Shown here in pieces: positions 2,293 through 24,941 of a stretch of 64,000 bases of DNA; the stretch's first letter is position 1; each line of letters starts with the position of its first letter. A model generated the notes under the pieces. That model did no database searches. It had not been told where the DNA came from and worked only from the letters and a program-made list of their open reading frames with translations. The position numbers and the translations under genes were made by a program. Origin of the DNA: Cyanobacterium sp. HL-69. Lineage in GTDB: Bacteria; Cyanobacteriota; Cyanobacteriia; Cyanobacteriales; Cyanobacteriaceae. The DNA is taken from NCBI GenBank assembly GCA_002813895.1, contig CP024912.1, positions 558,001 through 622,000 on the forward strand, given 5' to 3'.

Positions 2293-4161
2293 ATGTGCGG
2301 AATTGTAGGTTACATTGGAACTCAGAAAGCAGTTGGTATTCTCATTGGTGGGTTGGAAAAACTAGAATATCGGGGTTATGATTCTGCTGGTATCGCTACT
2401 ATTTATGATCAGCAGTTGACGGCCATCAAAGCGAAGGGCAAACTGCACAATCTCCGCACTAAGTTAGAAAATAATGTTGATTATGCTCAAATCGGTATTG
2501 GGCATACTCGCTGGGCTACCCACGGAAAACCAGAGGAATATAATGCCCATCCCCACGGTGATAATAAGGGAAAGTTTGCGGTGGTGCAAAATGGCATCAT
2601 AGAAAATTACCAAGATTTACGGAAGGAGTTGAAGGAGAAAGGACATAATTTTGTTTCGGATACTGATACGGAGGTAATTCCTCATCTATTAGCAGAATAT
2701 TATAATCCTCAAGGGGATGATCCTTTTATGGATGCGGTGATGAAGACGGTACATCGTTTGGAGGGAGCTTTTGCGATCGCCCTTTTGTGTGCTGATTATC
2801 CCGAAGAATTAATTGTTGCCCGTCAAAACGCCCCTTTGATTATCGGTTTTGGGCAGGGAGAATTTTTCTGTGCTTCGGATGTAACCGCCTTAGTAAACCA
2901 TACTAACGCTGTATTAGCCCTTGAAAATGGCGAAATTGGACGTTTAACCCCCCTAGGAGTAGAGTTATATGACTTTGGGGGTAAAAGATTACGCCGTAGC
3001 CCTAGGGTACTAGATTGGAATCCTGTAACGGTAGAAAAACAAGGTTTCCGCCATTTCATGCTCAAGGAAATCCACGAACAACCTTCGGTGGTGCGCACTT
3101 GTTTGGAGGTCTATTTTAATCCTGATTGGCAGATAAAGGCAACAAAACCTGTTAACCTCAATCTCAGCCCCGAATTATCAGAAGATTTAGAAAATATCCA
3201 AATCGTTGCCTGTGGTACTTCTTGGCACGCTAGTTTAGTCGGTAAATATTTGTTAGAACAAATTGCAGAGATACCTACTTTTGTTCAATATGCGTCGGAG
3301 TTTCGATATTCCCCAGGCCCAATTATGGCGAATACCATGACTATTGGGGTAACTCAGTCGGGGGAAACGGCGGATACTTTGGCGGCTTTGGGTATGGAAA
3401 GACAAAGACGCTCTCGTTTAGATAAACCTTTTCGCCCTCGCATTGTTGGTATTACTAATCGCCCTGAAAGTACCCTCGGTGGTATGGTCGATCAATTAAT
3501 TAACACCTATGCAGGGATTGAAATTGGGGTGGCAGCCACTAAAACTTTTGTGGCACAGGTGATGGCATTTTATGTGTTGGCGTTAGATTTGGCTTGGCAA
3601 AGAAAAACTATCAATCCCGAAAGAATTGACCAAATTTTGGCTGGTTTGTTGCAACTTCCTACCCAGATAGAGAAGATTTTACAAACGGAGGAGTCCAAGA
3701 TTGAGGAGTTGGCGCATAATTTCCCTGAAACTAGAGATTTTGTTTTCCTCGGTAGGGGTATCAATTTTCCCATTGCTTTAGAAGGGGCGCTGAAACTCAA
3801 GGAGATTAGTTATATCCATGCGGAGGGTTATCCTGCAGGGGAGATGAAACATGGCCCCATTGCCCTTTTAGATGCCCATGTACCTGTAGTGGCGATCGCC
3901 ATGGCAGGGAGTGTTTATGAAAAGGTCATTTCCAATGCCCAAGAAGCCAAGGCAAGGGATGCTCGTCTGATCGGAGTTGTACCCCAAAGTTATGATGACG
4001 AGGTATTCCACGATATTTTAAATGTGCCAGAGGTGGAAGAGTTATTGTCCCCTATTTTGGCGGTAATTCCTTTACAGTTGCTTTCCTATTACATCGCTTC
4101 TTTGCGTGGTTTGGATGTGGATCAACCCCGTAATTTGGCTAAAAGTGTTACGGTGGAATAG
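2293..4161 (+). CDS. glmS: Glucosamine-fructose-6-phosphate aminotransferase (isomerizing)
   Basis: 622 residues. The glutamine amidotransferase domain begins with the nucleophile cysteine (MCGIVGYIG) and contains HTRWATHGKP; two SIS sugar-isomerase domains follow (CGTSWHASL at about 307, FLGRGINFPIALEGALKLKE later). It converts fructose-6-phosphate and glutamine into glucosamine-6-phosphate for cell-wall synthesis. The C-terminus reads DVDQPRNLAKSVTVE. The DNA coding for this end is the conserved site that TnsD reads in Tn7, and a Tn7-like element indeed starts 25 bp after the stop codon. Confidence 0.97.
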   Translation: MCGIVGYIGTQKAVGILIGGLEKLEYRGYDSAGIATIYDQQLTAIKAKGKLHNLRTKLENNVDYAQIGIGHTRWATHGKPEEYNAHPHGDNKGKFAVVQNGIIENYQDLRKELKEKGHNFVSDTDTEVIPHLLAEYYNPQGDDPFMDAVMKTVHRLEGAFAIALLCADYPEELIVARQNAPLIIGFGQGEFFCASDVTALVNHTNAVLALENGEIGRLTPLGVELYDFGGKRLRRSPRVLDWNPVTVEKQGFRHFMLKEIHEQPSVVRTCLEVYFNPDWQIKATKPVNLNLSPELSEDLENIQIVACGTSWHASLVGKYLLEQIAEIPTFVQYASEFRYSPGPIMANTMTIGVTQSGETADTLAALGMERQRRSRLDKPFRPRIVGITNRPESTLGGMVDQLINTYAGIEIGVAATKTFVAQVMAFYVLALDLAWQRKTINPERIDQILAGLLQLPTQIEKILQTEESKIEELAHNFPETRDFVFLGRGINFPIALEGALKLKEISYIHAEGYPAGEMKHGPIALLDAHVPVVAIAMAGSVYEKVISNAQEAKARDARLIGVVPQSYDDEVFHDILNVPEVEELLSPILAVIPLQLLSYYIASLRGLDVDQPRNLAKSVTVE

Positions 4162-4166
4162 TTTTA

Positions 4167-4184
4167 GGGTGGGCTTTACCCACC
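4167..4184 (+). terminator. Hairpin after glmS, probable terminator
   Basis: GGTGGG-CTTTA-CCCACC forms a 6-bp GC-rich stem directly after the glmS stop codon. The expected T-tract is only TTTG because the transposon end begins three bases beyond the stem, so the insertion may have replaced the original T-run. Confidence 0.6.
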
Positions 4185-4196
4185 TTTGTAGCATGG

Positions 4197-4273
4197 TAAT
4201 AAAGTTGTATAACTTTTAATAAAGTCGTATATTAAAAAATAAAGTTGTATAATTTCAAGTAGAGTTGTATAAC
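4197..4273 (+). repeat. Right-end TnsB-binding array: four sites at 20-bp spacing
   Basis: Four direct copies of a 17-bp motif (consensus TAATAAAGTTGTATAAC) start at 4197, 4217, 4237 and 4257, exactly 20 bp apart and beginning 10 bp inside the terminus. A partial inverted copy lies at 4278-4290, between the array and the tnsA start. Tn7 right ends carry four abutting TnsB sites over about 90 bp, so the function is inferred by analogy. The inverted copy could allow TnsB to repress the tns promoter. Confidence 0.85.
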
Positions 4274-4317
4274 TTTGTTCGACTTTATTAAAAGAAAGAT
4301 TTTACTCACAAACTGCC

Positions 4318-5118
4318 ATGGCTCGAAAAAAAAGTGATTGGTCACAAAATAAACTGAGTCGATACTTACAAGAAGGTAGAGGAAAAGGAGAGGGAAAAAA
4401 TTATGTTCCTTGGAAAAAAATTCAAGATTTTCCTTCTTGTGGCCGTTCTTCGAGAATATCTGGTTGGAAAACAAATAGAATTCATCACTTCTTTTCTGAT
4501 CAAGAGAAGAAAATGTTTTTCTTGCTAGATTGGTCGGACATTGTTTTCGACATTAAAGAACATTATCCTCTCCAAGATTTAGAACTAGCAATGAAGATTG
4601 CAGATCAAATGGGAATAAAGTATCCTATTGATTCTCAGTCAAGCACTCCTTATATTCTCACAACAGATTTTATGATTTCTATTAAGACTGATGAGGGAAT
4701 AACTGATGTCGCAAGAACTATTGTAAGTTCTTCTGAACTTATTAAGAAAAGGAAAGTTGAGCTTTTGGAGCTAGAAAGAAGGTATTACCAAAATTTTAAT
4801 ATTAACTGGGGAGTAGTGACGGAAAAAGGTATATCAAAAATATTTGCTCAAAATATAGAGTGGGTTCACTCTAGTTACAACCTAGATGATACACAACAAA
4901 ATATTAAGACTTTAAAAACAATTCTTAAAGAAGAACTCAATCGCAAAAACAAAAGCATACAAGAAATTACCTCTGATCTTGATAATGTGATGAATTTGGA
5001 GCTAGGAACTTCGCTTTCTGTTTTTAAACATTTATTAGCCAGAAAGGAAATTTATTGTGATATGAGTTCGAGGAAAATTTCTACAAAATTCTCAACAAGT
5101 TTCATCCAAATAAAATAA
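4318..5118 (+). CDS. tnsA: TnsA endonuclease-like transposition protein, catalytic motif altered
   Basis: 266 residues, similar along the whole length to Tn7 TnsA: EGRGKGEGKNYVPW near the N-terminus, DIKEHYPL (E81), TTDFMI (D117) and ELERRYYQ. TnsA cuts the 5' strands at the transposon ends so that Tn7 moves by cut-and-paste. Tn7 needs an acidic pair plus a Q-x-K motif; here the aligned segment around 132-140 reads ARTIVSSSE, giving T134-I-V136 with no lysine nearby. The C-terminal half, which contacts TnsC in Tn7, is present. The gene is first in the tns operon, 15 bp before tnsB. Confidence 0.88.
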   Translation: MARKKSDWSQNKLSRYLQEGRGKGEGKNYVPWKKIQDFPSCGRSSRISGWKTNRIHHFFSDQEKKMFFLLDWSDIVFDIKEHYPLQDLELAMKIADQMGIKYPIDSQSSTPYILTTDFMISIKTDEGITDVARTIVSSSELIKKRKVELLELERRYYQNFNINWGVVTEKGISKIFAQNIEWVHSSYNLDDTQQNIKTLKTILKEELNRKNKSIQEITSDLDNVMNLELGTSLSVFKHLLARKEIYCDMSSRKISTKFSTSFIQIK

Positions 5119-5133
5119 ATATTTATCAAAGTT

Positions 5134-7413
5134 ATGGATCACGAGATTTTCGTTAACGATTTAATTAAATGGGAATCAACTAACAATGATTTTGCTGGAG
5201 TTGTAGAAAGAGTTTTATGGATTGATGAAGGGTATACAATCGCATTTATGTTGAATATCGAGTCAACCAAAGGATTTCCTCGTACTTTTTCTGTATCAGG
5301 CTTAAGAGAGGCTTTAAAACGAGGAGAGGCAAAAAAATTAAAAAAAGATCCTTGGTTCAAGATTATTGTGGAAGAAAATTTGTCAGATAAGGAAAAAGAC
5401 ATTCGGGATCATGCTTGGAATATTATAGAGCCAATAATTACACAAGAACCAGATATATATGATAGGAGTACGCGAGGAAATTTAGTTACACAAATAATAG
5501 AAAAATATAATCAAGGACGAGATAAAAATAAGTTAACAATAAGAAGTGTTCATAAATATTTAAGAAGATTTTGGCAGAGGGGAAAAATAAAAGATGCTCT
5601 TCTTCCAGACTATGCCAATTCAGGTGGTAAAGGGAAAACAAGACAATTGGGAACAAAAAAACGAGGAAGACCGAGAAAATTCAAAAACGTCCAAGAAATA
5701 GGCGAAGGAATAAATATTACAGAACAAGATAGACAGATATTTAGAATCGCAATTAATAAATATTATCGAGATTCCAAGAAAAATTCCTTACCAAAAGTAT
5801 ATAAATTAATGGTTAAGGAATATTACACAGAAAATTATCAAATAGATGAAAATAATCATCCACAGCCTATCCTAGTTCCTTCCGAAGAAAGACCAACGTT
5901 AGATCAATTTCGCTATTGGTATGAAGTCGAAAATAAAGATGTAAAGAAAGATATTACATCACGTCAAGGAAAGAAAAATTTTGATTTAAAATATCGTGCG
6001 ATCAAAGGTTCGTCCAAACAAGAAACCATTGGTCCTGGCTCTCGTTATCAAATAGATGCTACTATCGGAGACGTTTACTTGGTGTCGAAATATAACCGTA
6101 GCTGGATTATTGGCAGACCCGTTATTTATGTTGTAATTGATGTTTTCAGTCGTATGATAACGGGGGTTTATGTTGGTTTAGAAGGTCCTTCGTGGATCGG
6201 AGCAATGATGGCATTAGTTAATACGGCATCAAACAAAAAATCATTTTGTCAAAAATTTGGTATAGAAATAGATGAATCAGAGTGGTGTTGCCATCATTTA
6301 CCTGAGTGCATTCTTGCTGATCGAGGAGAATTTGCCGGTATGGGGGTGGAAACGATGATTCCTAATTTAGGAATTAGGATTGAAAATGCTGCTCCTTATA
6401 GAGCCGACTGGAAAGGTTTAGTAGAACGTCACTTCAGAGTTATTCACGATCATGTAAAACCCTTTTTACCTGGTTATATTGACAAAGATTTTCGTCAGCG
6501 AGGTGCTAGAGATTATCGTCTTGATGCTCAACTAGATATTGATCAATTTACAGAAATTATCATTGAATTAATTCGCTATCATAATAGTCATGAGTTAACA
6601 AACTACAACAGAGACGAAGAAATGATAGCTGATGATGTTCAGCCAATTCCCATAGACTTATGGAGATGGGGAATTAAAAATCGCTCTGGGAAATTACGCA
6701 CTGTTGACGAAGAACTTCTTAAATTTAATCTAATGCCCACCTCTAAGGCAACTATTACGGAGCGGGGGGTTAAGTTTAAGTCTATGTACTATGTCAACGA
6801 AAAAGTTGTTAGGGAAAGATGGCGAGAAAAAGCTAGAAGTGGGATGCTTTCTAAGGAAGAAAAATACATTACAGTATCCTATGATCCACGACAAACAGAT
6901 TTTATTTATCTTTCCTCTTCCGAAGACAACAGTTTTGAAAAACTAGAGCTATTCGATCCTGATGAACGCTACGCCAATAAAACGATGTTTGACATTGATT
7001 ATTTAATTGAATATGAAAAATTGCAAAGGAAAAAACGAGAGACAAATCAGTTGCAAAAGGAGGTGAATTTAATGTCAAAGATAGAAAGCATTACAGCTCG
7101 TGCTATGGAAGAAACTGCCAAATATCAAGATGATAGCTTGAGCAATTTACAAAAAACCTCCAATATAAGGGAGTATAGAGCATTAGAAAAAGAAAAACGC
7201 CGTCAAGAAGAAGCATTCGAGCTAAAAAAAGAAGAAGAGCAAGATCAAATAATGGTTGAGACAAAACCGAAGTCATCTCTTGAGGGCAAACAAAAACTAT
7301 CAGATAATAAACAGATAACATCGACTCCATCATCTTCCAGTCAACCAAATCGGTTAGAACTACTGAAACGAAAAAGACAGGAAAAACTAAATAAATCAAG
7401 GGGAGATAAGTAA
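5134..7413 (+). CDS. tnsB: TnsB DDE transposase
   Basis: 759 residues. An N-terminal DNA-binding region (about 1-200, with the basic run KKRGRPRK at about 182-189) precedes an RNase H-like integrase core. The catalytic triad is visible: D308 in YQIDATIGD, D396 in LADRGEF and E431 in GLVERHF, with D-x34-E spacing. The protein joins the 3' transposon ends to the target and binds the end repeats. The last 150 residues are charged and low-complexity; in relatives the tail touches TnsC. The gap to tnsC is only 2 bp, suggesting translational coupling. Confidence 0.93.
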   Translation: MDHEIFVNDLIKWESTNNDFAGVVERVLWIDEGYTIAFMLNIESTKGFPRTFSVSGLREALKRGEAKKLKKDPWFKIIVEENLSDKEKDIRDHAWNIIEPIITQEPDIYDRSTRGNLVTQIIEKYNQGRDKNKLTIRSVHKYLRRFWQRGKIKDALLPDYANSGGKGKTRQLGTKKRGRPRKFKNVQEIGEGINITEQDRQIFRIAINKYYRDSKKNSLPKVYKLMVKEYYTENYQIDENNHPQPILVPSEERPTLDQFRYWYEVENKDVKKDITSRQGKKNFDLKYRAIKGSSKQETIGPGSRYQIDATIGDVYLVSKYNRSWIIGRPVIYVVIDVFSRMITGVYVGLEGPSWIGAMMALVNTASNKKSFCQKFGIEIDESEWCCHHLPECILADRGEFAGMGVETMIPNLGIRIENAAPYRADWKGLVERHFRVIHDHVKPFLPGYIDKDFRQRGARDYRLDAQLDIDQFTEIIIELIRYHNSHELTNYNRDEEMIADDVQPIPIDLWRWGIKNRSGKLRTVDEELLKFNLMPTSKATITERGVKFKSMYYVNEKVVRERWREKARSGMLSKEEKYITVSYDPRQTDFIYLSSSEDNSFEKLELFDPDERYANKTMFDIDYLIEYEKLQRKKRETNQLQKEVNLMSKIESITARAMEETAKYQDDSLSNLQKTSNIREYRALEKEKRRQEEAFELKKEEEQDQIMVETKPKSSLEGKQKLSDNKQITSTPSSSSQPNRLELLKRKRQEKLNKSRGDK

Positions 7414-7415
7414 AA

Positions 7416-9137
7416 GTGAACCAATTGGATTTTGAGAATAAGTACAGTTATTACGATTGGATTGATATTTCCCATGGTACTAGAGGGGCGATCGCCAAAT
7501 ACCGTACTTTTCATCAGAAGGAATACAACGATAATCCCATGATTAAGACTTTGCCTCCCATTTTTTCCCAAGAAAGATTTATTGAACTGGTAGCTAAATA
7601 TCCTGATTTTGACCCTGGGGAAAGAAAATATGAAGCCGAGGAACGATTCCACTTTATTGAAAGATTATCAAGGTATTTCGACCCCATTGCCAAAACCCTT
7701 GATTTACAACAAACAATTTCAGTTTTACTAATGAGTGGCTACATTGGTAGAAATCTAATTAAACCCGAATACGCACGAAAATCAAGAGAAATATATGACT
7801 CCATCCAAGCAAAAGATGGTCATAATTTGGAAAACTATGTGACGATAATTCCTACTCCCACAACGGCATCGGGCTTGACCATTATAGGGGAATCAGGATT
7901 AGGAAAATCAACAAATCTAGCAAACATCTTAGAAGTATATCCACAAGTAATTGTCCACCCCCAACATAACGTTAGCCAAATTGTATGGCTTAAAGTCGAT
8001 TGTCCTCATGCTGGTTCTCTCAAAGGTTTATGTACCGATATATTTTTAGCTATTGATAAATTGCTCGGAACAAATAACTTCAAAAAATTTGGTTCAAGGG
8101 GTAACTCAGAAGATTATATGTTGGCACAAGTTGCCCAACTTTCTCATACTCATCATTTAGGACTATTGGTAATTGATGAAATGCAGAACTTGGCAAATTC
8201 CAGACGAGGAAGAGACGATCTTCTTAATTTTTTAGTCAAAATGGATAATGTAATTGGAATACCTGTAATTAGAGTGGGAACAAATGAGGCAGAACCAATT
8301 TTAACGGGGAACTTTAGAAATGCTCGAAGGGGAACAGGAGAGGGAGCAATCCGTTGGAAAAGAATGGAAAATAACGAGGACTGGTTATTATTTGTTGAGG
8401 GAATGTGGGAATATCAATGGACAAAAACAAATGTTGCTTTTACCAAAGAAATCAGTGATGTTCTTTATGAAGAAACTCAAGGAATTATTGACATACTAAT
8501 CAAACTTTATAAAATGCTTCAATGGCGTGCAATTTCTTTGGGGGGAGATGAAATAATTACAACAGATTTAATTCGTCAGGTTGCACAGGATGGCTTATAT
8601 TTGGTTAAACCAATGCTTGAGGCGATTCGGTCTGGAAACCTCATACAAATGAAAAAATACCGTGATATAGCTCCTTTGGATGTCTTAGAATATCGAGAAA
8701 AATGTCTGAATCAGACTAATTTTGAGGATTTAGCTCAAATACGGAGATTACAAAGAAAGCAACAAAAATCACAATCCATGTCTCCACTTCTCAAGCAGAT
8801 TATCAGTCAATTATTAGAGCTTGATGTTGATGCCCACAAAGCAAAAATTTTGGCACAGAAAATTATTCAAGAAAATCCTGATGAAGATAATATTTCCAAG
8901 TTAGTTAATTTAGCTTACAAGATCGCCATAGATGGAGAATCTTATCAGGAAGCGAATAAGGCTAAGACAAAAAAAGCAAAGATAGTAAAACCTGATCCAG
9001 AGTACATTGAAAATGACATGAGACTCTTGTTACAACAATCCCAAGCAGAAAACTTTTCTGTTTATGAGAAATTTATGGAAGTTGGGATCGTGAAAGATAC
9101 TCCTCAAGATGACTTTTATTTAAGTTATGCAGAATAA
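7416..9137 (+). CDS. tnsC: TnsC AAA+ ATPase, transposition regulator
   Basis: 573 residues from a GTG start. Walker A is GESGLGKST at 158-166 and Walker B is LLVIDEMQN with D254-E255. TnsC forms ATP-dependent rings on target DNA that recruit TnsA and TnsB after marking by TniQ/TnsD. It is longer than V-K CAST TnsC proteins and closer to Tn7 TnsC. The C-terminal 130 residues are charged and may hold the TnsA/TnsB contact region. tniQ follows 9 bp downstream. Confidence 0.92.
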   Translation: MNQLDFENKYSYYDWIDISHGTRGAIAKYRTFHQKEYNDNPMIKTLPPIFSQERFIELVAKYPDFDPGERKYEAEERFHFIERLSRYFDPIAKTLDLQQTISVLLMSGYIGRNLIKPEYARKSREIYDSIQAKDGHNLENYVTIIPTPTTASGLTIIGESGLGKSTNLANILEVYPQVIVHPQHNVSQIVWLKVDCPHAGSLKGLCTDIFLAIDKLLGTNNFKKFGSRGNSEDYMLAQVAQLSHTHHLGLLVIDEMQNLANSRRGRDDLLNFLVKMDNVIGIPVIRVGTNEAEPILTGNFRNARRGTGEGAIRWKRMENNEDWLLFVEGMWEYQWTKTNVAFTKEISDVLYEETQGIIDILIKLYKMLQWRAISLGGDEIITTDLIRQVAQDGLYLVKPMLEAIRSGNLIQMKKYRDIAPLDVLEYREKCLNQTNFEDLAQIRRLQRKQQKSQSMSPLLKQIISQLLELDVDAHKAKILAQKIIQENPDEDNISKLVNLAYKIAIDGESYQEANKAKTKKAKIVKPDPEYIENDMRLLLQQSQAENFSVYEKFMEVGIVKDTPQDDFYLSYAE

Positions 9138-9146
9138 AACTAACCC

Positions 9147-10061
9147 ATGTTACATTTATTTCCCACCCCGTATCCCGACGAACTTTTGTATAGCGTAGTA
9201 TGTCGTTATCATATCAGAAGTGGAAATAGAACAGTACAACATACACGATCAGATTTATCATTCCTAAATAATGGAAATAGTTATAGCCACATTTTACCTA
9301 GCAAATTGGGTCATTTAAGTAAACAACTTCCTTTTGCTTGTAGTTTAACCGTAGAGCAGTTAATCGAAAATCACACTTTGTTCCCTTACTATCGAAGTTA
9401 CTTGACTTATAAAGAACAAACTGTCTTAAAAAATTTCATGATAGGGAAAAAAGCAAGGTCGATCGCACTGTTGGCGAAAATACCCAAATTAGAGCTATAT
9501 AATTCATCCAATCTAAAATTTTGTTCGTTATGCTTAGAGCAAGACTTAAAAATATACGGTGAAACGTACTGGCATAGGTCGCATCAAATGCCGGGGGTAA
9601 AAATGTGCTTAAACCATAATCAGCAATTACAGGATAGTAAAGTTACAACAGAAGCAATTAGACGAAATTTTATATTGCCTACATTTAATCACTGTGATGT
9701 GAAAGAGTTACATGGTGATAGTTCGGTTAAAGAAACATTGTCAGTTTTTGCAAGAAAGATAATAGACGAAATCAATCAACCTTCCCAATTTATTAGTTTG
9801 AAACATTTGCGAGACAGTTATCGGCCACTTTTGAGACAAGAGGATTCAATAAATTTAAAGAATGGAGAAATTAATCCAGATAAATTAGCAGATCAGATAA
9901 TCCAATATTATGGTTTGTCAACTTTAAGCATAATTCATCCTGAAATCATGGACAAGTTTAGCGATTATCTTTCTCTTTCCTTGATGGCGTGTGATTTATT
10001 AACAGAGGTTGATCGAGTTTTGCATTGGTTAGTGCAAAAATTTATTGAGGATAATTATTAA
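9147..10061 (+). CDS. tniQ: TniQ/TnsD-like target-selection protein (short form)
   Basis: 304 residues. The start FPTPYPDELLYSVVCRY and the block QLIENHTLFPYYRSYL match the TniQ domain of Tn7 TnsD closely. A zinc-binding set C126-x2-C129 ... C154-x2-H157 follows in KFCSLCLEQDLKIYGETYWHR and KMCLNHNQ. TnsD of Tn7 has 508 residues and uses its C-terminal part to read glmS; this protein is about 200 residues shorter. It is therefore either a compact TnsD that reads attTn7 or the TniQ of a CRISPR-guided element. Its neighbour cas6 favours the second, its location at glmS the first. Confidence 0.9.
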   Translation: MLHLFPTPYPDELLYSVVCRYHIRSGNRTVQHTRSDLSFLNNGNSYSHILPSKLGHLSKQLPFACSLTVEQLIENHTLFPYYRSYLTYKEQTVLKNFMIGKKARSIALLAKIPKLELYNSSNLKFCSLCLEQDLKIYGETYWHRSHQMPGVKMCLNHNQQLQDSKVTTEAIRRNFILPTFNHCDVKELHGDSSVKETLSVFARKIIDEINQPSQFISLKHLRDSYRPLLRQEDSINLKNGEINPDKLADQIIQYYGLSTLSIIHPEIMDKFSDYLSLSLMACDLLTEVDRVLHWLVQKFIEDNY

Positions 10062-10100
10062 TCTCACAGATAATAAAATAGAAGATAGTCAAGAACATAT

Positions 10101-10697
10101 ATGTCTGTTGAAAAACCCATTATTTCCAACTATATCAATCTTATTTTTCCCATTTTAGGTGATAAAATTCCCTTAGATCATGGTTATCTTTTATATTCTG
10201 CCATTTCACGTCAATTTCCCATTATTCATGACCTAGATGAGTTTGGTATTTTACCTATTACTGGACAGCTTGAATTTCCTAAAAATCTTTGTTTAACTGA
10301 TGAATCTAAATTACATCTGCGTTTACCCATAGATAAAGTACCTTTGATTTATCGTTTAGCAGGAAAAACACTAAATCTCAATACCGATAAGATTCGTTTA
10401 GGCTTACCAGAATCTCAAGAATTAGAAGGGTGCGATCGCCTCTACTCTCGATTGGTCATTATAAGAGGTTTTGATGAACCATATAACTTCTTAAAAGCGG
10501 TAGAACGTCAATTAGAAGGCCTGAATATCTTTGCAAAAATAGATTTAATAACGAAATCGGGAAAACCTATTCGCCGCACCATGAAAATCAAAGGGAGAAC
10601 ATTGATTGGTTTTGGAGTAGAAATTAGTCAATTAAACGAACACAGTTCGATTTTAATTCAGGAGAGGGGTATTGGAGGAAAGCATAAAATGGGATGA
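10101..10697 (+). CDS. cas6: Cas6/Cmx6-type CRISPR RNA endonuclease, C-terminus cut short
   Basis: 198 residues with the Cmx6 (type I-MYXAN) pattern: IFPILGDKIPLDHGYLLYSAISR (14-37), HLRLPIDKVPLIYRLAGKTLNL (72-93), LVIIRGF (118-124) and a final IQERGIGGKHKMG. Cas6 cuts pre-crRNA in CRISPR repeats and often remains part of Cascade. In relatives I recall, the last motif continues as G-C-G plus about five residues; here a TGA follows KMG directly, so the glycine-rich loop is incomplete. It lies 39 bp after tniQ and overlaps the next frame by 26 bp. No other cas gene or repeat array is in the window. Confidence 0.82.
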   Translation: MSVEKPIISNYINLIFPILGDKIPLDHGYLLYSAISRQFPIIHDLDEFGILPITGQLEFPKNLCLTDESKLHLRLPIDKVPLIYRLAGKTLNLNTDKIRLGLPESQELEGCDRLYSRLVIIRGFDEPYNFLKAVERQLEGLNIFAKIDLITKSGKPIRRTMKIKGRTLIGFGVEISQLNEHSSILIQERGIGGKHKMG

Positions 10698-11187
10698 TGT
10701 TCATAAACCTACTTTTATTTTATTGTTACGTTTGCGACATCTATTAGAAACAAAAACCAGCAATAGGAGTGCAAGCGTCTCGCTTGCTAGGAAAAATCAG
10801 CAAGATACGTCTGTTTTTTCGATAAATGAGCAAGATGCTCATATTCCTAACTCCTCAAACTCTTTGGCGGAGGAATGTTTACTTAAAGGTTTTACAGGAA
10901 TACCTAGTAATCCTCAATGGCTTTCTCAGGCTCAAACCTTAGAGTTACTAGCTCAAGTTACCCCCTCAGGAGATTTACCTTTAATCCGTCAACAGGAATG
11001 GGTAGAAAAGATTTTGTCACGACTAACTGATTTAGAGGAGAGCTTGAAAACTATTGGGATGGAACGAGCTAATATTTTATTAGACTCCCATGATCGGATG
11101 AGAAAAGTCACCAAAGAGGCACAAGTAAAAGTAACTCCTCAATTACCAATGGATATTTTAGGGATTTATATTTTACTACCTGATTAA
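10672..11187 (+). pseudogene. C-terminal remnant of an SNF2/DrmD-like helicase
   Basis: 171 residues from a TTG, open only from 10657. The end (LEESLKTIGMERANILLDSHDRMRKVTKEA, then LPMDILGIYILLPD) resembles the tail of the large helicase-related proteins that precede DrmMI-type methylases in class 1 DISARM loci; this is from memory and not searched. No helicase motif remains. Residues about 30-65 are encoded by two palindromic REP units (10771-10787, 10826-10842) read in frame. The 5' end runs into the cas6 stop region, suggesting a deletion joined the two genes. Confidence 0.55.
10771..10842. repeat. Two REP palindromes inside the helicase remnant
   Basis: GCAAGCGTCTCGCTTGC (10771-10787) and ATGAGCAAGATGCTCAT (10826-10842) are perfect or near-perfect 17-bp palindromes of the same family as those at 15275-15326, 16281-16481 and 18135-18151. 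Confidence 0.75.
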
Positions 11188-11277
11188 TCTTATTCAAATA
11201 CTCCTAAGAACTTCAGTGACTAAGATGCTCACACTGCCAATACCAAATATTATCCGATAATTGTTTACTGAGAAAAA

Positions 11278-14200
11278 ATGACCATTACTGCTATTCACAT
11301 TGAAGGAAATTTAATCGCCCCCGATATGACTGCCGATATTAGTGCAGGAGAAATCAGGGGTCAAATTAACATTGACTTTGGCTTAGAAAAATCGGTTAAA
11401 TTAGAGGACGAAATTGCCTTTGCATGGGGGGAAGCAAAAGACCAATGGCGTATTTATCAACGACGTTTAGAACGCATTAAGGAAACAGATACAGCCACCA
11501 GTGAGACAAGGGAATATTGGGCTGTGCCATTGTTAAGATTATTGGGTTATGAACCTATTTATCAAGCTAAAGCTGAAATTATTGATGGTCAAACTTTTGC
11601 TATTTCTCATCGTTCCAATCAGGTAGTGGCAAATGATGAAATTCACCCTGCACCCCCTATACATATTATTGGTTCTCGTCTCAGTTTAGATAAAAAACCA
11701 CCTTCGGGCAATCCTCGCTTATCAGCCCATGCACTTTTGCAAGAATACTTGAATAAAACTGAGCATTTGTGGGGCATTGTCACGAATGGTTTATGTTGGA
11801 GGTTACTCCGTGATTGTTCTTTAATGACACGGTTAAGTTACATTGAATTTGACCTTGAACAAATCCTGAATGGGGAGAATTTTGCAGAGTTTAGTTTATT
11901 TTATCGCTTATTCCACCGCTCTCGCCTTCCTGTGAGTATAGATGATGTGGATTCTTGTTTATTGGAATTTTATCATCAAGAGGCTTTACAACAGGGCGGT
12001 AGAGTGCGCGATCGCCTACGGGATGGAGTAGAATTCGCCTTAAAGTTACTGGGCAATGGTTTTTTACAACATCCTGCTAATAATCGTTTACGGCATAGCC
12101 TCACCTCTAACCTTTCTAGTGGTAAAGAAGACATTGATCACCCCCAAGCTACAGAAAAGGGAGATAAATTGACAGAAACTCAGTTTTATCGTCAGTTACT
12201 GCTCTTAATTTACCGTTTATTGTTTTTGATGGTGGCTGAATCCCGTAATTTACTTTTGGCTGGGGAAGATGAGGAAAAAGCCCGAATTTATAATGAATAT
12301 TACAGCATAGATCGCCTTAGAGCTTTTGCTGAACGTCTTTTGGAGTGGGAGCGTCCCGCTCACCATCGCCGTGAGGGGTTTCAAGATAAATGGCAAGGGT
12401 TAAGGGTGACTTTCAGCCTATTTGATGAGAGTTGGCGAGGACAATTATTAGGTTTATCTCCTCTCAATGGGGATTTATTTGGCTCAAAAACTTTGACTGT
12501 TTTAGATGATTGTGCCATCGATAACTATGATTTATTGAGGGCGATTCGTCACCTTTCTTTATACGAAAATAAGGGCTTATTGCGTCGGGTTAATTATGCT
12601 GCTTTGGATGTGGAGGAGTTAGGCAGTGTCTATGAGAGTTTGCTTGATTATACCCCTAAAGTTACTGTTTTTGATGGTATTTATCATTTTAGACTGGTGA
12701 CCGGGAGCGACCGCAAGACTACAGGTTCATACTATACCCCTCCTGAATTGGTAGGACAGTTAATTAAATCCGCTTTAGAACCTGTTATTGAAGATAAGTT
12801 AAAAGGTTGTGATACCCAAGAGGAAAAGATAACAGCCCTATTAAGTATTAAAGTATGTGACCCTTCCTGTGGTTCAGGACATTTCTTGTTAGCTGCTGCC
12901 CGAAGAATTGGTAAAGAGTTGGCGAGAATCCGCACAGGGGAAATGTCACCCACACCCGAAGCCCTGCGCGTAGCCATACGGGATGTCATTCAAAATTGCA
13001 TCTATGGGGTGGACTTAAATCCCCTTGCGGTGGACTTATGTAAAGTAGCCCTATGGATGGAGGGATTTTGTAAGGGTTTTCCCCTCAATTTCCTTGACCA
13101 TCGCATAAAATGGGGTAATTCCTTAGTGGGAATACTCGATATTTCTGTGTTAAATGAAGGTATCCCCGATAATGCCTTTAAAGCTGTCACAGGGGATGAC
13201 AAAACCTCCGCTACCCTGTTGAAGAAGCGTAATAAACAGGAAAAACAAGAAAAAGGTCAACTATCCATTTTTGATCACGTTGAGACGGATAGAAGTGAGT
13301 ACGGTAAAACATGGCGAGAGTTGGGCAATATTCCTGAAAATAGTACCGATGAAGTTAAACGTAAACAACGGCAATATCAACAGAGTCACAGTGCCAAAAA
13401 CGAGGGATGGTGGCGTGATTTTAGTGCTTGTAATCTCTGGACTTCGGCATTTTTTATGGCTTTAACGGAGCAAAATTTACAGTTATTGCCCACTTCTAAG
13501 GCTTTACAACGGTTATTATCAGGAATGGAGAATACAGAAACTGGGGTGACTGTGAGGGAGTTAGTAGAATCTGCTAATCGCTTGGCACGGGAAAAGGGCT
13601 TTTTTCATTGGTGTTTAGAATTTCCTGAAGTGTTTGATCCCCCCCTGCCCCCCTTAATAAGGGGGGAGAATGAGAAAGTCCCCTTTTCTAAGGGGGATTT
13701 AGGGGGATCTGGTTTTGACTGTGTTTTGGGTAATCCGCCGTGGGAACGCATTAAGTTACAAGAAAAAGAGTTTTTTGGGGGTAAAGATGAAAGTATTGCA
13801 AATGCTAGAAATAAGGCTGAAAGGACAAGGTTAATTAAAAAGTTAGCTCAAACTAACCCTAATTTATTACAACAATTTGAGGATGAAAAGCATTTTGCAG
13901 AGGCTCAAAGTAAGTTTATTCGAGAGTCGGGGCGGTTTCCTCTCACTGCTAAAGGTGATATTAATACCTATGCTATTTTTGCCGAAACTGTCAGGGATAT
14001 TATTAATAATAATGGGCGTTGTGGCGTAATTGTTCCCACTGGAATTGCTACTGATAACACCACTAAAGACTTTTTTGGGGATTTAATTCAAAGGCAATCT
14101 TTAGCCAGTTTATACGATTTTGAAAATAGAGAAGCAATATTTTCTAGTGTTCATAGAAGCTATAAATTTTCTCTTTTAGTTATGACTAATAAATCGATAA

Positions 14201-15270
14201 AATCAACTAATTTTGCTTTCTTTTTAACCCAAGTAAAACATTTAGAAAATAAGCAAAGAGTTTTTACTTTAGCCCCTGAAGATATAGCTTTAATTAATCC
14301 TAATACTTTAACTTGTCCAGTATTTCGCACTCGTCAAGATGCAGATTTAACTAAAAAAATCTATCAAAGAATACCCGTTTTAGAAAATGAATCTACAGGG
14401 GAAAATCCTTGGGGTATTTCTTTTATGAGAATGTTTGATATGGCTAATGATAGTAATTTATTTAAGGATGAAAAGGGAGAGAATTTATTACCTTTATATG
14501 AAGCTAAAATGTTTCATCACTTTGATCATCGTTGGGCAAGTTATGACGATCAAAGGAATACTAATGATGTTAGTTTAGATGATAAAAATAACCCTGATTT
14601 TTTTGTTACTCCTCGTTATTGGGTTGATAAAAAAGAGGTTGAAAATAGATTAGCTAATAAATGGAATAAAGAATGGTTGTTAGGTTTTAGAAGAATTACC
14701 AACGCAACAAATGAAAGAACAGCTATTTTTGATTTATTACCTAAATATGGCTGTGGTGATAGTATTGCTTTAGTTTTACCAAGTACAAATAAAGCTAATT
14801 TAATTTGTTGTTTATTAGCTAATTTTAGTAACTTAGTTTTTGATTTTGTAATAAGACAAAAATTAGGGGCAACAACATTTAATATGTTCTATGTTAAACA
14901 ACTCCCCGTAATACCACCAGAAAATTATAGTGAAGAAGACATCGAATATATAAGCAGTAGAGTATTAGAATTAGTTTACACCGCCAACGATTTAAAACCC
15001 TTTGCTGAAGATTTAGGCTATGAAGGAAAACCCTTTATTTGGGATGAACAAAGACGGGCAATTTTAAGGGCGGAATTAGATGCAAAATATGCCAAATTAT
15101 ACGGCTTAAATCGTGATGAATTAAGATATATTTTAGACCCAACGGACATTTATGGCGATGATTTTCCCAGTGAAACTTTTAGGGTATTAAAGAATAATGA
15201 GATTAGGAAATATGGGGAATATCGCACCCAAAGATTAGTTTTAGCCGCATGGGATATGATGGGATATTAG
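11278..15270 (+). CDS. Large N6-adenine DNA methyltransferase, DrmMI-like
   Basis: 1330 residues. The SAM-binding motif I is CDPSCGSGHFLLAAARR near 527 and the adenine-methylase motif IV is LGNPPW near 816-821, the Eco57I/type IIG-like arrangement with motif I before IV. The N-terminal 480 residues and C-terminal 450 residues probably hold nuclease-like and target-recognition parts. The size and the helicase neighbours fit DrmMI of class 1 DISARM, which marks host DNA so that invading DNA is attacked. A C/G-rich palindromic repeat is inserted in frame at residues about 787-811, immediately before motif IV. It follows the helicase remnant by 90 bp. Confidence 0.8.
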   Translation: MTITAIHIEGNLIAPDMTADISAGEIRGQINIDFGLEKSVKLEDEIAFAWGEAKDQWRIYQRRLERIKETDTATSETREYWAVPLLRLLGYEPIYQAKAEIIDGQTFAISHRSNQVVANDEIHPAPPIHIIGSRLSLDKKPPSGNPRLSAHALLQEYLNKTEHLWGIVTNGLCWRLLRDCSLMTRLSYIEFDLEQILNGENFAEFSLFYRLFHRSRLPVSIDDVDSCLLEFYHQEALQQGGRVRDRLRDGVEFALKLLGNGFLQHPANNRLRHSLTSNLSSGKEDIDHPQATEKGDKLTETQFYRQLLLLIYRLLFLMVAESRNLLLAGEDEEKARIYNEYYSIDRLRAFAERLLEWERPAHHRREGFQDKWQGLRVTFSLFDESWRGQLLGLSPLNGDLFGSKTLTVLDDCAIDNYDLLRAIRHLSLYENKGLLRRVNYAALDVEELGSVYESLLDYTPKVTVFDGIYHFRLVTGSDRKTTGSYYTPPELVGQLIKSALEPVIEDKLKGCDTQEEKITALLSIKVCDPSCGSGHFLLAAARRIGKELARIRTGEMSPTPEALRVAIRDVIQNCIYGVDLNPLAVDLCKVALWMEGFCKGFPLNFLDHRIKWGNSLVGILDISVLNEGIPDNAFKAVTGDDKTSATLLKKRNKQEKQEKGQLSIFDHVETDRSEYGKTWRELGNIPENSTDEVKRKQRQYQQSHSAKNEGWWRDFSACNLWTSAFFMALTEQNLQLLPTSKALQRLLSGMENTETGVTVRELVESANRLAREKGFFHWCLEFPEVFDPPLPPLIRGENEKVPFSKGDLGGSGFDCVLGNPPWERIKLQEKEFFGGKDESIANARNKAERTRLIKKLAQTNPNLLQQFEDEKHFAEAQSKFIRESGRFPLTAKGDINTYAIFAETVRDIINNNGRCGVIVPTGIATDNTTKDFFGDLIQRQSLASLYDFENREAIFSSVHRSYKFSLLVMTNKSIKSTNFAFFLTQVKHLENKQRVFTLAPEDIALINPNTLTCPVFRTRQDADLTKKIYQRIPVLENESTGENPWGISFMRMFDMANDSNLFKDEKGENLLPLYEAKMFHHFDHRWASYDDQRNTNDVSLDDKNNPDFFVTPRYWVDKKEVENRLANKWNKEWLLGFRRITNATNERTAIFDLLPKYGCGDSIALVLPSTNKANLICCLLANFSNLVFDFVIRQKLGATTFNMFYVKQLPVIPPENYSEEDIEYISSRVLELVYTANDLKPFAEDLGYEGKPFIWDEQRRAILRAELDAKYAKLYGLNRDELRYILDPTDIYGDDFPSETFRVLKNNEIRKYGEYRTQRLVLAAWDMMGY
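13637..13710. repeat. C/G-rich palindromic repeat inserted in frame in the methyltransferase
   Basis: The stretch has outer arms GATCCCCCC / GGGGGATC and inner arms CCCCCCTTAATAAGGGGGG. It encodes DPPLPPLIRGENEKVPFSK and on to GDLGG. This is the form of a mobile palindromic repeat widespread in cyanobacterial genomes and often met inside genes. It adds about 25 residues between LEFPEVF and GFDCVLGNPPW without breaking the frame. Confidence 0.75.
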
Positions 15271-15274
15271 GAAT

Positions 15275-15326
15275 GTGAGCGTCTCGCTCACTAAGACTTC
15301 AATACAAGCGTCTCGCTCATTGTATT
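15275..15326. repeat. Two REP palindromes after the methyltransferase
   Basis: GTGAGCGTCTCGCTCAC at 15275-15291, and a longer one at 15301-15326 in which AATACAA/TTGTATT arms enclose an AGCGTCTCGCT core. They belong to the same REP family found around the RAYT remnant. Confidence 0.75.
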
Positions 15327-15360
15327 GGGTAATGAAATTATCCTGCTCACTATATTGTAT

Positions 15361-16272
15361 AGAACCCATTTGGTATCTAGTAGAATATTGAGATGAAAAC
15401 ATAGAGAAATAGAAGAATGGCTTACTCTAGCAGTCTAAGTGATCAAGAATGGGAAATAATTAAACCTCTGTTGCCAAAAAAGAAAAGAACTTGTCCCTCA
15501 AAATGGTCAAAAAGGCAGATTTGGGATGGTATTTTTTATCAGCTCAAAAATGGCTGCAATTGGTCTGATTTGCCTAAAGATTTACCCCCTTATTCAACAG
15601 TTTACTGGCATTATAAAAACTGGAAAAAGGAGGGAATCTTTGAAATAGTGATGTGTGAACTTCATAAGCAACTAAGGGAAAAAGTAAAAAAAAATCTACT
15701 TGGACTCGATTAATAATCATTGATTCTCAAGCAGTACAAAATACTTGTAATGCGGGGGTAGAGAGTAAAGGATTCTGTAGGTATAAACTGACCAATGGTA
15801 TTAAAAGACATTTAGCCGTAGATAGCCTCGGCTTTCCTTTTTTCACTTGTTGTACAAAGGCAAACGTTTCTGATGATAAAGGATTAATCATGATGTTAAC
15901 CAACCATATGGATTATTTTCGTCGCAAACCCATGAATGTTCATAAAATTACAATTTTGGTCGATTCAGGTTATCATCCTGGCTTTATCATGGCCGAATTA
16001 GAGAAAATTTATCCACAAATTGGAAGAAAAATTCGTATTGAAAAGTCCCCCAAAATATCTCCTGAACAGAAAAAGTTAGAAAGAAAAAAGGGCTTCGTGG
16101 TAGTCAAAGCAAGATGGATTATTGAAAGATCCAATGCCTGGATGGAAAGATGTAAAAATTTAGTCAAAAACTTTGAAAGAACCTTATTTAATTCTACCCA
16201 GAAAGTTAACTTATGCTTTATTCGACTACTCTTAAAAAGACTCACTGCTTCTTAAGATACCAAATGGGTTCT
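15361..16272 (+). mobile_element. IS5-family insertion sequence, complete
   Basis: 912 bp bounded by perfect 18-bp inverted repeats, AGAACCCATTTGGTATCT at 15361-15378 and its complement at 16255-16272. TAT precedes and ATA follows, so the target may be a TA-type site with a 2-bp duplication. The element separates the methyltransferase from the helicase of the cargo and sits among REP palindromes. A truncated second copy lies at 25467-25838. Confidence 0.9.
15417..16255 (+). CDS. IS5-family transposase, orfA/orfB joined by -1 frameshift
   Basis: Frame A (15417-15713, 98 residues) holds the helix-turn-helix half (WEIIKPLLP, DGIFYQLKNGCNWSDLP). A run of nine A at about 15685-15693 permits a -1 slip into frame B, which continues through LIIIDSQAV (first D), TILVDSGYHPGF (second D) and ERSNAWMERCKN (E). 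Two overlapping frames with such a slip site are normal for this IS5 subgroup, so I take the pair as an intact transposase rather than a broken gene. Confidence 0.85.
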
Positions 16273-16280
16273 ATAAAATA

Positions 16281-16481
16281 GCGAACAAGATGTTCGCATT
16301 CCGTTTTGGGGACGATGGTAATGTGAGCATCTTGCTCACTAAATTACTAAAAATAACTAAATCACTTAAAATAGTTGACTCGATCGTATAAAGTCATTGC
16401 ATAAAATAGCAAATAAGATATTATGTGGAAGAAGTAGCAAACAAGATACTATGTAGAGAAATTAGCGAACAAGATGTTCGC
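16281..16481. repeat. REP palindrome cluster upstream of RAYT remnant
   Basis: GCGAACAAGATGTTCGC at 16281-16297 and again at 16465-16481, with GTGAGCATCTTGCTCAC at 16323-16339 between them. Decayed copies (aataagatattatg, aacaagatactatg) lie at about 16412-16456. Clustering of REPs beside a RAYT gene is the usual REPtron layout. Confidence 0.8.
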
Positions 16482-16506
16482 ATTCCTAGTTTTTGGAGAC
16501 GGTAAA

Positions 16507-16956
16507 ATGGCGTATAAAAAACCATTACCCCAATTAGAGGTAAAAGGGGGAACTTATTTCGTTACTTTTAACACTTACGATCGATTAGAATTAAACTATG
16601 AAGCGAGAAAATTAGTTTTAGATTGCTGTTTATTTTTCCATGAAAAACGCTATTTTTTATATACTGGGGTTGTGATGTCAGATCATGTTCATCTTTTAAT
16701 TAAACCCTATGAAAAATCAGAAAATAAATATTGATCGATCGGCAGTATTTTACACAGTATAAAAAGCTATAGTGCTAAACAAATTCCTGAAGTAATGAAG
16801 CACATTGGGAAAGTATGGCAAGATGGACGTTATGATATTTTAATGAAAAATAACCAACAATTTCTCAATACTTGGGAATATATTAAAGAAAATCCTGTTA
16901 AGGCAAAATATATTAATAAAGAAGAAAATTATCCTTTTTTATGGGAAGTATTTTAA
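16507..16956 (+). pseudogene. REP-associated tyrosine transposase (RAYT, IS200-like), nonsense mutant
   Basis: The frame from ATG 16507 to TAA 16954-16956 has 149 codons with one internal TGA at 16732-16734. Before it, GGTYFVTFNTY and MSDHVHLLIKP (the HxH metal-binding signature) identify a Y1/RAYT enzyme. After it, SIGSILHSIKSYSAKQIPE and NTWEYIKENPVKAKYI continue in the same frame. The lost codon is most simply TGG (tryptophan) turned to TGA. RAYTs move or multiply REP palindromes; several such palindromes lie directly upstream. Confidence 0.85.
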
Positions 16957-16958
16957 GT

Positions 16959-17324
16959 TTAATTTTCTGTAATAGAATTAACTTGATAATTTTTGATGAT
17001 ATTAATAATTTGTTCATTACTAATATTAGCTTGTTCTGATTTTGTATAAACAGTTAATAAAATCACTGCATCTTCTATTTTTACATAGTAAATAAGACGG
17101 TATCCGCCACTTTTTCCTTTTTGAATATCACTATTTTTTACCCTTACTTTAAATACTGGATGATTAACACCAGTGATTCTATCCCCTAATAATTCTCCCG
17201 TTTCTAATTGTTCAATTATCGGCTTTATATCCTGAGCAATACTACCATATTTTTTCTTAAGATTTCGTAAATTACGTTTAAATGTGAGAGTAGCCTCTAC
17301 GGTAATTTTCCGATTATTCGTCAT
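16959..17324 (-). CDS. RelE/ParE-superfamily toxin
   Basis: 121 residues. VEATLTFKRNLRNLKKKYGSIAQDI, a basic VFKVRVKNSDI strand and the GKSGGYRLIYYVKIEDAVILLTVYTKSEQ block are typical of RelE/HigB toxins, which cut mRNA at the ribosome or in some members inhibit gyrase. It overlaps the upstream small gene at 17314-17547 by 11 bp, the normal antitoxin-first arrangement. It lies in the transposon cargo on the opposite strand and may stabilise the element. Confidence 0.8.
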   Translation of the reverse strand: MTNNRKITVEATLTFKRNLRNLKKKYGSIAQDIKPIIEQLETGELLGDRITGVNHPVFKVRVKNSDIQKGKSGGYRLIYYVKIEDAVILLTVYTKSEQANISNEQIINIIKNYQVNSITEN

Positions 17325-17547
17325 CTTCTAAACCTTCCCAAAGTTGACTAACTGGAATAGTTTGCCCTGTCATCGCCTCATGCCAAGAGATATGAAAGTC
17401 GTTCACAACATCAGTGTCACTTGAGTAATTAATACTGTTTTGGTTATATTTTTCCTGAAGATACTCTGCATAATGCAATAATTCTTCTTGCAAAGATTTA
17501 GGCATTTTTCCCAAAGTTTCTAATATTTTAGTTTCAATATTTATCAT
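17314..17547 (-). CDS. Antitoxin partner of the RelE-like toxin
   Basis: 77 residues. The N-terminus (KILETLGKMPKSLQEELLHYAEYLQEKY) resembles the DUF2281/VapB-type antitoxin helix; the acidic C-terminus (VSQLWEGLEDDE) would wrap the toxin. The gene overlaps the toxin start by 11 bp, so the two are translationally coupled. The family assignment of the N-terminus is moderate; the role comes mostly from the position. Confidence 0.68.
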   Translation of the reverse strand: MINIETKILETLGKMPKSLQEELLHYAEYLQEKYNQNSINYSSDTDVVNDFHISWHEAMTGQTIPVSQLWEGLEDDE

Positions 17548-17615
17548 AGTTTTTTAATCGATAATTTAAGGGTTTCTGCACATTGATTGTAACCAAAATC
17601 TCAATCTGATTTTCC

Positions 17616-20600: not shown

Positions 20601-21179
20601 TATACTCCATTTGCGACCTCTGCCACCATTGTAAACACTGGGGGTTCAGTTAAATTAACTCCCCGTAGTAAAGTAGCAGGTTATTTGCGTTCTTCTGCGG
20701 TATGGAATTGGTTGATAAATCCTCTGAGTGAAGATGAATATGAGAAGTTAATTGAAACCTTTATTAATATTTTGAAGGATGGGGGTTATTTAAAGGGTGA
20801 AAAGGATAATATTCAACTCAGAGTTGATTCTATGGTCTGGAAAGCTCAAAAAGTAGCTTCTATTCCTATTGACCCCACTACCATCAAAAGGTTGCAGGGC
20901 AGTAATCAAGATAGTCAACAGGTAAATAGGTTTTTTCAAAATTTTTATGAAGTCCAAGCCCAAACCATACAGGCAATGGAAGGGCGGGAACACACTGGAC
21001 AAGTAACAAATCAAAACCGTCAAATGCGAGAGGATAAATTTAGACAAGGGGAATTATCCGCTTTATTTTGTTCTCCTACCATGGAGTTAGGTATTGATAT
21101 TAGAGATTTAAGTGTTGTTCACCTCCGAAATGTTCCCCCCAATCCTGCGAATTATGCACAACGTAGTGGACGGGCGTGA
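17616..21179 (+). pseudogene. DEAD/DEAH-box helicase with DUF1998, first part, cut by TGA in motif VI
   Basis: Motif I (TTGTGSGKS) is near 293-301, the DELH box near 408-411, SAT (GTSATMS) near 447-453, a zinc-like FCRECG near 636-641 and QRSGRA at the end. The TGA at 21177-21179 replaces the glycine of QRSGRAGRGG; the same frame continues to 23219, giving about 1867 codons in all. DUF1998 helicases of this length occur in Druantia (DruE) and related DISARM-like systems. The start may really be the ATG at 17706, because the first 30 residues look non-coding. Residues about 125-180 are a Ser/Glu-rich repeat linker ending in a REP. Confidence 0.85.
18000..18151. repeat. Degenerate tandem repeat ending in a REP palindrome, read in frame
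   Basis: Units of the type TTCAGAGAGCGTTAGT recur at about 18007, 18034, 18076 and 18109 and encode repeated SES-V/SS motifs. The last unit ends with the palindrome GAGAGCAAGATGCTCTC (18135-18151), the same REP family as at 16281-16481. The low-complexity linker in the helicase therefore appears to have grown from REP-type DNA. Confidence 0.65.
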
Positions 21180-21200
21180 AGAGGGGGACAAGAAGCATTA

Positions 21201-23219: not shown

Positions 23220-23295
23220 ACTTAATCAGTGAATAAATATGATTGTTTTGCAATAAAGCTAGAACCAGTAGTTTCTTTCAAAAATCGATGTTAAA

Positions 23296-23443
23296 AATAT
23301 ACAACTTTATTCCCATAACTTTATTGACCTCTAATTTATAGGTAATCTAGTCAGCTTTAAAATTATACAACTTTATTTTTAGGTAACAAAAAAATACAAC
23401 GAAAAAAATGGTTTATAGACCCTCAAATTATATAACTTTATTA
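23296..23443 (-). repeat. Left-end TnsB-binding sites: three dispersed copies
   Basis: Inverted copies of the right-end motif lie at 23296-23312 (AATATACAACTTTATTC), 23362-23378 (ATTATACAACTTTATTT) and 23427-23443 (ATTATATAACTTTATTA), spaced 65-66 bp. A half copy (ATAACTTTATT) lies at about 23315-23325. The outermost starts 10 bp inside the terminus, exactly as at the other end. Three spaced sites are what Tn7 has in its left end. Confidence 0.85.
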
Positions 23444-24493: not shown

Positions 24494-24941
24494 TACAATA
24501 ATTATAAATTATTTCATATAAAGTTATTGTACTATTGCTATACATTTTTGCTCTTTTTAAAGCACTAAAATCGTGTTCAATATCATTTAAATCTGGTGAA
24601 TAAGTTGGTAAAAACATTACTAGATGACCTGCTTCTTCTACTAATTCTTTTATCATATTTTTTCGGTGGATTGGTGCATTATCCATTATTAGTATTGAAA
24701 ATTGTTTTAGTGATGGTAATAAATACATTTTTAGCCATGATTCAACACTTTCTGCATTTAAACTTCCTGTAAAGATCATTGGAGCAATAAAATCTTTTTC
24801 TTTCTTTCTTCTTCCTGCTACTAAATTTTCTCTTTTTCCTCGTTTTCCTTGTTTCTCATCATAAATTTTTTTTCCTTTTTTTGACCACCCATAAATGCAA
24901 GTACTTATTTCCTCAAATCCTGACTCATCAATAAATACCAT
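24486..24941 (-). CDS. IS630-family transposase, orfB (DDE catalytic domain)
   Basis: The shifted frame enters from about 25035; the 151-residue piece from Met 24941 carries the catalytic set: MVFIDESGFE (D), ILIMDNAPIHRK (D) and YSPDLNDIEHDFSALKR (E). The catalytic residues are intact. It ends inside the 3' end of the unknown gene on the other strand. Confidence 0.85.
   Translation of the reverse strand: MVFIDESGFEEISTCIYGWSKKGKKIYDEKQGKRGKRENLVAGRRKKEKDFIAPMIFTGSLNAESVESWLKMYLLPSLKQFSILIMDNAPIHRKNMIKELVEEAGHLVMFLPTYSPDLNDIEHDFSALKRAKMYSNSTITLYEIIYNYCTS

Follow-up and report, generated by a model that had tools for sequence, protein, structure and literature searches.

Type I-B1 CRISPR-associated transposons (CASTs) are the closest described systems to the locus analyzed here. 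In PMC11406308, these elements are described as close to Tn7, as found naturally only in cyanobacteria, and as combining a glmS-targeting TnsD with a second TniQ that works with a type I-B Cascade. The same source describes an I-B1 subgroup that has likely lost TnsD.

We analyzed a stretch of 64,000 nucleotides (C1:558001-622000, hereafter the window) from a genome of 3.3 Mb in three contigs, coded G000, whose relatives mark it as cyanobacterial. Downstream of glmS, the window holds an element in which a single cas6 gene closes a row of tnsA, tnsB, tnsC and tniQ genes. We consider that this element very probably arose by deletion from a cyanobacterial type I-B1 CAST that homed to glmS, with Cas6 left as a bystander. 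Its features are as follows.

2293-4161, + strand: glmS (622 aa), the attachment-site gene upstream of the element
about 4187-23453: the whole element, 19.3 kb
4187-4272, + strand: left end, with a TGT terminus and four TnsB-like sites
4318-5118, + strand: tnsA (Pfam PF08721, 7.9e-22; PF08722, 4.2e-10)
5134-7413, + strand: tnsB (weak Pfam rve/Mu-C matches, under their cut-offs)
7416-9137, + strand: tnsC (AAA/TniB, PF13401/PF05621)
9147-10061, + strand: small I-B CAST-type tniQ, 304 aa (PF06527, 1.6e-25; PADLOC TniQ_IB, 6.3e-35)
10101-10697, + strand: cas6 (Cmx6), 198 aa, truncated at a junction at about 10696
10697-10839, + strand: putative deletion scar of about 140-145 bp, with copies of short dispersed palindromic repeats
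10840-11187, + strand: cargo helicase of ~940 aa, reduced to a 3' remnant of roughly its final 110 codons, which forms the end of ORF 10672-11187
11278-15270, + strand: N6 DNA methylase, DrmMI/PglX-like (1330 aa), cargo
17616-23219, + strand: Druantia DruE-like helicase in two ORFs (17616-21179 and 21201-23219), split by an in-frame stop
23297-23453, - strand: right end, with three TnsB-like sites and an ACA terminus at 23451-23453

The genes from tnsA to cas6 all lie on the + strand, and because the gaps between them measure only 15, 2, 9 and 39 bp, a single operon is plausible from the spacing. As in I-B1 CASTs, TnsA and TnsB are separate proteins with TnsC adjacent, and the small TniQ is of the kind that partners Cascade. 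TnsC matched the Tn7 TnsC in the PDB with an E-value of 4.7e-86. Compared with the counterparts in two other genomes, G151, from the same taxonomic order, and G214, identity was 51-57% for TnsA, 60-72% for TnsC and 37-43% for TniQ (37% to the G151 TniQ that precedes cas6), and TnsB was 58% identical to that of G151 over 760 positions and 68% identical to that of G214. The lengths of the window tnsA, tnsB, tnsC and tniQ were about equal to those in G151.

The insertion at glmS, the TGT...ACA ends and the repeated TnsB-like sites, which are predicted binding sites, are those of a Tn7-like element. The left TGT begins at 4187, 26 nt past the end of the glmS stop codon, and is followed by TnsB-like sites at 4198, 4218, 4238 and 4258, spaced by 20 bp and carrying 0-2 mismatches to AATAAAGTTGTATAA; the inverted sites of the right end lie at 23297, 23363 and 23428. 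The elements of G151 and G214 likewise have glmS upstream, and the distance from glmS to the TGT, picked by eye in each genome, was 27 in G151, 25 in G214 and 26 in a third genome, G007, from the same family as the window, whose glmS product is 80% identical to that of the window over 625 positions. No 5-bp target duplication was seen at the two ends of the window element (ACCTT versus AAAGT). In G007, CCTTT stands on either side of a first element, with the left end of a second element directly after it; because of this difference, the right boundary of the window element is less certain than the left. A DruL-like ORF (23408-24493) spans the right end, and its match to a relative in the genome G010 starts at residue 18, just beyond the transposon end, with no target duplication there.

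We further analyzed the cas6 gene. Its identity as a Cmx6-type Cas6, proposed in the first-pass annotation together with its place in the tns-tniQ row, was confirmed by NCBIfam TIGR02807 cas6_cmx6 (E = 1.2e-54, 185 bits against a curated cut-off of 98.85, profile positions 2-191 of 197), by Pfam PF09559 (1.3e-53, with no other PF09559 match found in the genome), by PADLOC Cas6b2 (1e-66) and by the Cas6 chain of PDB 8fcj (1.1e-41). The nearest Cas6 found was that of G007, with 83% identity. A feature that the first-pass annotation had not recorded is that the C-terminal end is missing: the window protein ends in GGKHKMG followed by a new stop after this glycine, where relatives carry on with CGVF, so that about 7 residues of the G007 form are absent. 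At the DNA level, the window and G007 are 86% identical over 10109-10696, ending in ...AAGCATAAAATGGGATG, and diverge beyond this point. Both G007 copies of cas6 and the copy in L003, a stretch of a Crocosphaera MAG, read on through the CGVF..P codons to a stop, with the start of cas8 a few bases later. Up to the junction, the window cas6 is open in frame and otherwise free of lesions.

The next ORF (10672-11187), which likewise went beyond the first-pass annotation, ends in a helicase remnant. Relatives were found only for its end, from about residue 59, with 48-52% identity over window positions 10840-11181. In tblastn searches, residues 823-939 of a Planktothrix helicase aligned with 10840-11181 and residues 836-941 of a Chroococcidiopsis helicase with 10864-11181, and the remnant matched the C-terminus of PADLOC DpdE at 2.5e-9. 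Because only the last ~110 residues match, this appears to be a cargo helicase that lacks about its first 820-835 residues. The junction segment itself (10691-10845) had no match among the sequences compared beyond itself and stretches of 14-15 bases.

The rest of the cargo is consistent with the origin of this remnant. The window methylase is 59-65% identical to the methylase encoded after the helicase on the Planktothrix and Chroococcidiopsis plasmids, and the order in these plasmids (helicase, N-6 DNA methylase, a few small genes and a large DEAD/DEAH helicase) is that of the window cargo. The cargo is decaying as well, since the DruE-like gene is broken by a stop. We take this stop to lie near a conserved helicase motif. 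Insertion sequences are also present in this region: an IS remnant at 15353-16280, inside the cargo, has 26-bp inverted ends with DUF4096 and DDE pieces; an inverted copy of 378 nt lies about 10 kb away at 25464-25841; and an IS630-type ORF pair occupies 24486-25333.

To place the truncated gene among its relatives, we compared loci that keep Cascade. At glmS in G151, tnsA-tnsB-tnsC-tniQ-cas6-cas8-cas7-cas5 are followed by four repeats 70-75 bp apart and then by tnsD. The order glmS-tnsA-tnsB-tnsC-tniQ-cas6 is thus the same as in the window, with TnsA to Cas6 37-60% identical, whereas only G151 retains cas8-cas7-cas5, the four repeats and tnsD, about 2.9 kb separating the array from tnsD. The G151 element may itself be ageing, because its tnsD has an open frame of 456 aa, compared with 627 aa in L003, and one stop interrupts its Cas7 match. 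The L003 stretch, which begins within cas6 and leaves tniQ outside, carries cas6 (63% identical to the window), cas8, cas7, cas5, three repeats and the 627-aa TnsD. In G084 the order is tniQ-cas6-cas8-cas7-cas5. In both further tniQ-cas6 pairs observed (G151 and G084, a small number), Cascade is therefore adjacent, with cas8 coming next, which is the arrangement that the first-pass annotation had named as pointing to a simple recent deletion.

A survey of 100 genomes, our own included, gave Cas6 matches in 27 genomes at 30 places; the genes number one fewer than the places, because L038 and L039 come from a single G007 gene that is broken in two. Within the 1.5-kb flanks, cas3 was present at 21 places and cas8 or its 5' part at 6. 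Neither was found at 2 of the 30 (L027, a fragment with a stop, and L036, which is degenerate), and a helicase remnant stands beside Cas6 in the window only (1 of 30). Among 12 TniQ places, cas6 adjoins tniQ in the window and G151 only; at the other 10, no Cas6 was found within 1.5 kb, and several of them are long TnsD-like frames. When plasmids were searched with nucleotides 9147-11187, a single short cas6 match was returned. The four plasmid records with Cas6 relatives that were examined, out of ten, comprised two cas6-cas3 loci, one cas6-cas8-cas7-cas5 locus and one fragment.

Several other loci came to light in these comparisons. In L002 (a Xenococcaceae MAG; 7347-8732 and 9998-13886), cas6-cas8-cas7-cas5 occur with no cas3 match and with eight repeats, seven identical and one with a single change; a 461-aa TniQ-domain protein lies nearby, no match to the window tns proteins was found within 15.7 kb, and the locus may represent another CAST type. 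L098 (a Tolypothrix sp. PCC 7601 plasmid; 4136-10338) encodes TnsB and TnsC 56-57% identical to those of the window, plus a TnsD-like gene, with no annotated cas gene within 9 kb, and is possibly a non-CRISPR sister line. We dropped the claim that the Cascade of L096 lacks tns genes, since a TnsC-like match beside it makes this doubtful.

Because homology breaks inside cas6 and the 3' end of a helicase follows, we infer a deletion, and the decayed type I transposon proposed as one option in the first-pass annotation is strongly supported: the break lies within cas6, the gene that cas8-cas7-cas5 immediately follow in relatives. The ancestor would have had the order tnsA-tnsB-tnsC-tniQ-cas6-cas8-cas7-cas5-array-tnsD, with a defence cargo of helicase, methylase and DruE helicase. 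The complete arrangement, the same CAST with the same cargo, was not found in any relative examined. The deletion would have run from some seven codons short of the cas6 end to a point inside the cargo helicase, taking the cas6 tail, Cascade, the array, tnsD and the beginning of the helicase. This was probably a single event; more than one is possible, because the ~140 bp between the junction and the helicase remnant lack a gene assignment. RNA-guided insertion and homing to glmS would both be expected to be lost, the latter because TnsD is missing. Unless a related element provides the missing parts in trans, the window element has thus most likely become immobile at glmS. Such a rescue is possible, since both ends remain and TnsA, TnsB, TnsC and TniQ have kept about their full length. 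With Cascade and the array gone, the truncated Cas6 has no known substrate or partner, and its part as a bystander is very probable together with the deletion as a whole.

One alternative, raised in the first-pass annotation as a Cas6 that serves a complex encoded elsewhere, is a split CAST, in which a functional Cas6 matures crRNAs for a Cascade elsewhere in the cell, such as a type I-D complex. The frame of Cas6 is intact up to the junction, and comparison with the G007 copy gives a dN/dS of 0.20 (dN 0.098, dS 0.483), a value that cannot separate the readings because much of this divergence may predate the deletion. We searched the window and the genome for the missing parts. In the window, tblastn with cas8, cas7, cas5 and TnsD of L003 and cas3, cas8, cas7 and cas5 of L042 gave matches at tniQ and cas6 only, the L003 repeat was not found at <=3 mismatches, and a general repeat scan of 4150-30000 gave no CRISPR array among the 20 largest families listed. 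The absence of cas5, cas7, cas8 and repeats from the element, as first noted, was therefore upheld, and the Cascade, short array and glmS-directed TnsD that accompany cas6 in I-B1 CASTs were not found.

Across the three contigs of the genome, profile searches detected no I-B Cas7, Cas8 or Cas5 at E<=1. These profiles were two-row alignments from L003 and L002, and in the control genomes they gave matches in 4/4, 3/4 and 4/4 other genomes, respectively; they also picked up stand-alone I-B loci that are only distantly similar (G003 and G007). An earlier single-protein Cas7 query of the genome, run without a control genome, was also empty and was redone with the profiles and controls. The Pfam DevR model PF01905 was dropped as a Cas7 model, because it matched 0 of 5 genomes even though that of L003 has Cas7. 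The CAST repeat core, at <=2 mismatches, occurred at four places in G000, all with two mismatches, compared with three for the reversed control, and was found in four perfect copies in G151 and three in the genome of L003. A TniQ-domain search of the genome yielded three PF06527 places, namely the window tniQ and two distant open frames of 157-159 aa, and therefore no TnsD was seen.

The genome-wide search proposed in the first-pass annotation thus found neither an I-B Cascade nor the CAST repeat above background, and what it did locate was one CRISPR system, of type I-D, with an array. By NCBIfam, this locus contains Cas10d/Csc3, Cas3', part of Csc2, Csc1, Cas6 (TIGR01877), Cas4 and Cas1d; the single Cas1 of the genome and its single PF10040 Cas6 both lie here, and the eight repeats seen in its array differ from the CAST repeat. 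A I-D system could in principle supply a partner complex; however, it already encodes a Cas6, from a different family, and the window Cas6 lacks its last residues. A split CAST is therefore very unlikely.

A second alternative accepts the deletion and supposes that the tniQ-cas6 pair was retained afterwards, the truncated Cas6 aiding target choice by TniQ or TnsC, or binding RNA supplied in trans. If true, the element would be a Cascade-free transposon that binds RNA. We regard this as very improbable, as nothing supports a function kept by the clipped Cas6. Similarly, TniQ and Cas6 might form a new target selector that reads host RNA or structure without Cascade, in line with the new use of Cas6 RNA binding suggested in the first-pass annotation. 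The pair lies within the closely spaced gene row, and TniQ contacts Cas6 in I-F3 and Cas11, Cas7 and Cas6 in I-B2, as described in PMC11406308. However, the abrupt break, the new stop in cas6 and the helicase remnant are marks of deletion, cas8 follows the other pairs seen, and nothing positive was found for this reading, which is extremely improbable. That an intact Cascade escaped notice because the assembly wrongly fused two distant regions is hardly credible, given a contig of 3.16 Mb, a genome 99.99% complete and 0% contaminated, and the result for I-B Cas5, Cas7 and Cas8 in all contigs.

A deletion derivative of a I-B1 CAST also fits the company of other decayed loci at glmS. In G007 (L040-L042), two decayed I-B1-like elements lie head to tail, joined as right end, CCTTT and left end, and a cas6-cas3-cas8-cas7-cas5 locus comes after them. 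Like the window element, they sit at glmS with the same TnsB-like sites and at the same distance from the gene; unlike it, they retain cas6, present as one whole and one broken copy, along with tnsD pieces and the 5' portion of cas8, and CCTTT duplications flank the first element. No tnsABC or small tniQ was found at these elements in the 60 kb examined. At glmS, G010 carries tnsD pieces and a possible tniQ scrap. At the same gene, G214 has tnsABC together with a tniQ that breaks off near residue 280; an IS630 transposase comes next, and the following 28 kb gave no match to cas genes or tnsD. Because the four decayed loci (the window, G007, G010 and G214) each retain a different part, they suggest that I-B1 CASTs at glmS have eroded piecemeal in the cyanobacterial order of the window. 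Another remnant, annotated as Cas6, is found in L094 (Gloeothece verrucosa PCC 7822 plasmid Cy782201; 11998-12610), where a cas6 piece overlaps a cas8 piece with IS transposases near. For surveys, these results caution that single cas genes beside tniQ can be deletion scars. The locus looks like an ordinary remnant and not a new mechanism, and what is known of CAST mechanism is unchanged.

In the titles and abstract openings among the matches listed, which leave most subscription literature outside their scope, neither this locus nor a lone tniQ-cas6 pair is described. Compared with the I-B2 CAST of PDB 8fcj, which we take to be PmcCAST, the window shares a homologous Cas6. Unlike the window, I-B2 CASTs have TnsA fused to TnsB and home to tRNA genes, according to PMC11406308. 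Compared with I-B1 CASTs of the AvCAST/Tn7743 kind, as described there and with G151 standing in for AvCAST, the window element shares separate tnsA and tnsB, a Tn7-like TnsC, a small I-B TniQ, insertion after glmS and a cyanobacterial host; it differs in that no cas8, cas7, cas5, array or tnsD was found and in that the 3' end of cas6 is clipped. Loss of targeting modules is a known theme among such elements in the same source, and the window locus is therefore one more case, in which the scar is visible.
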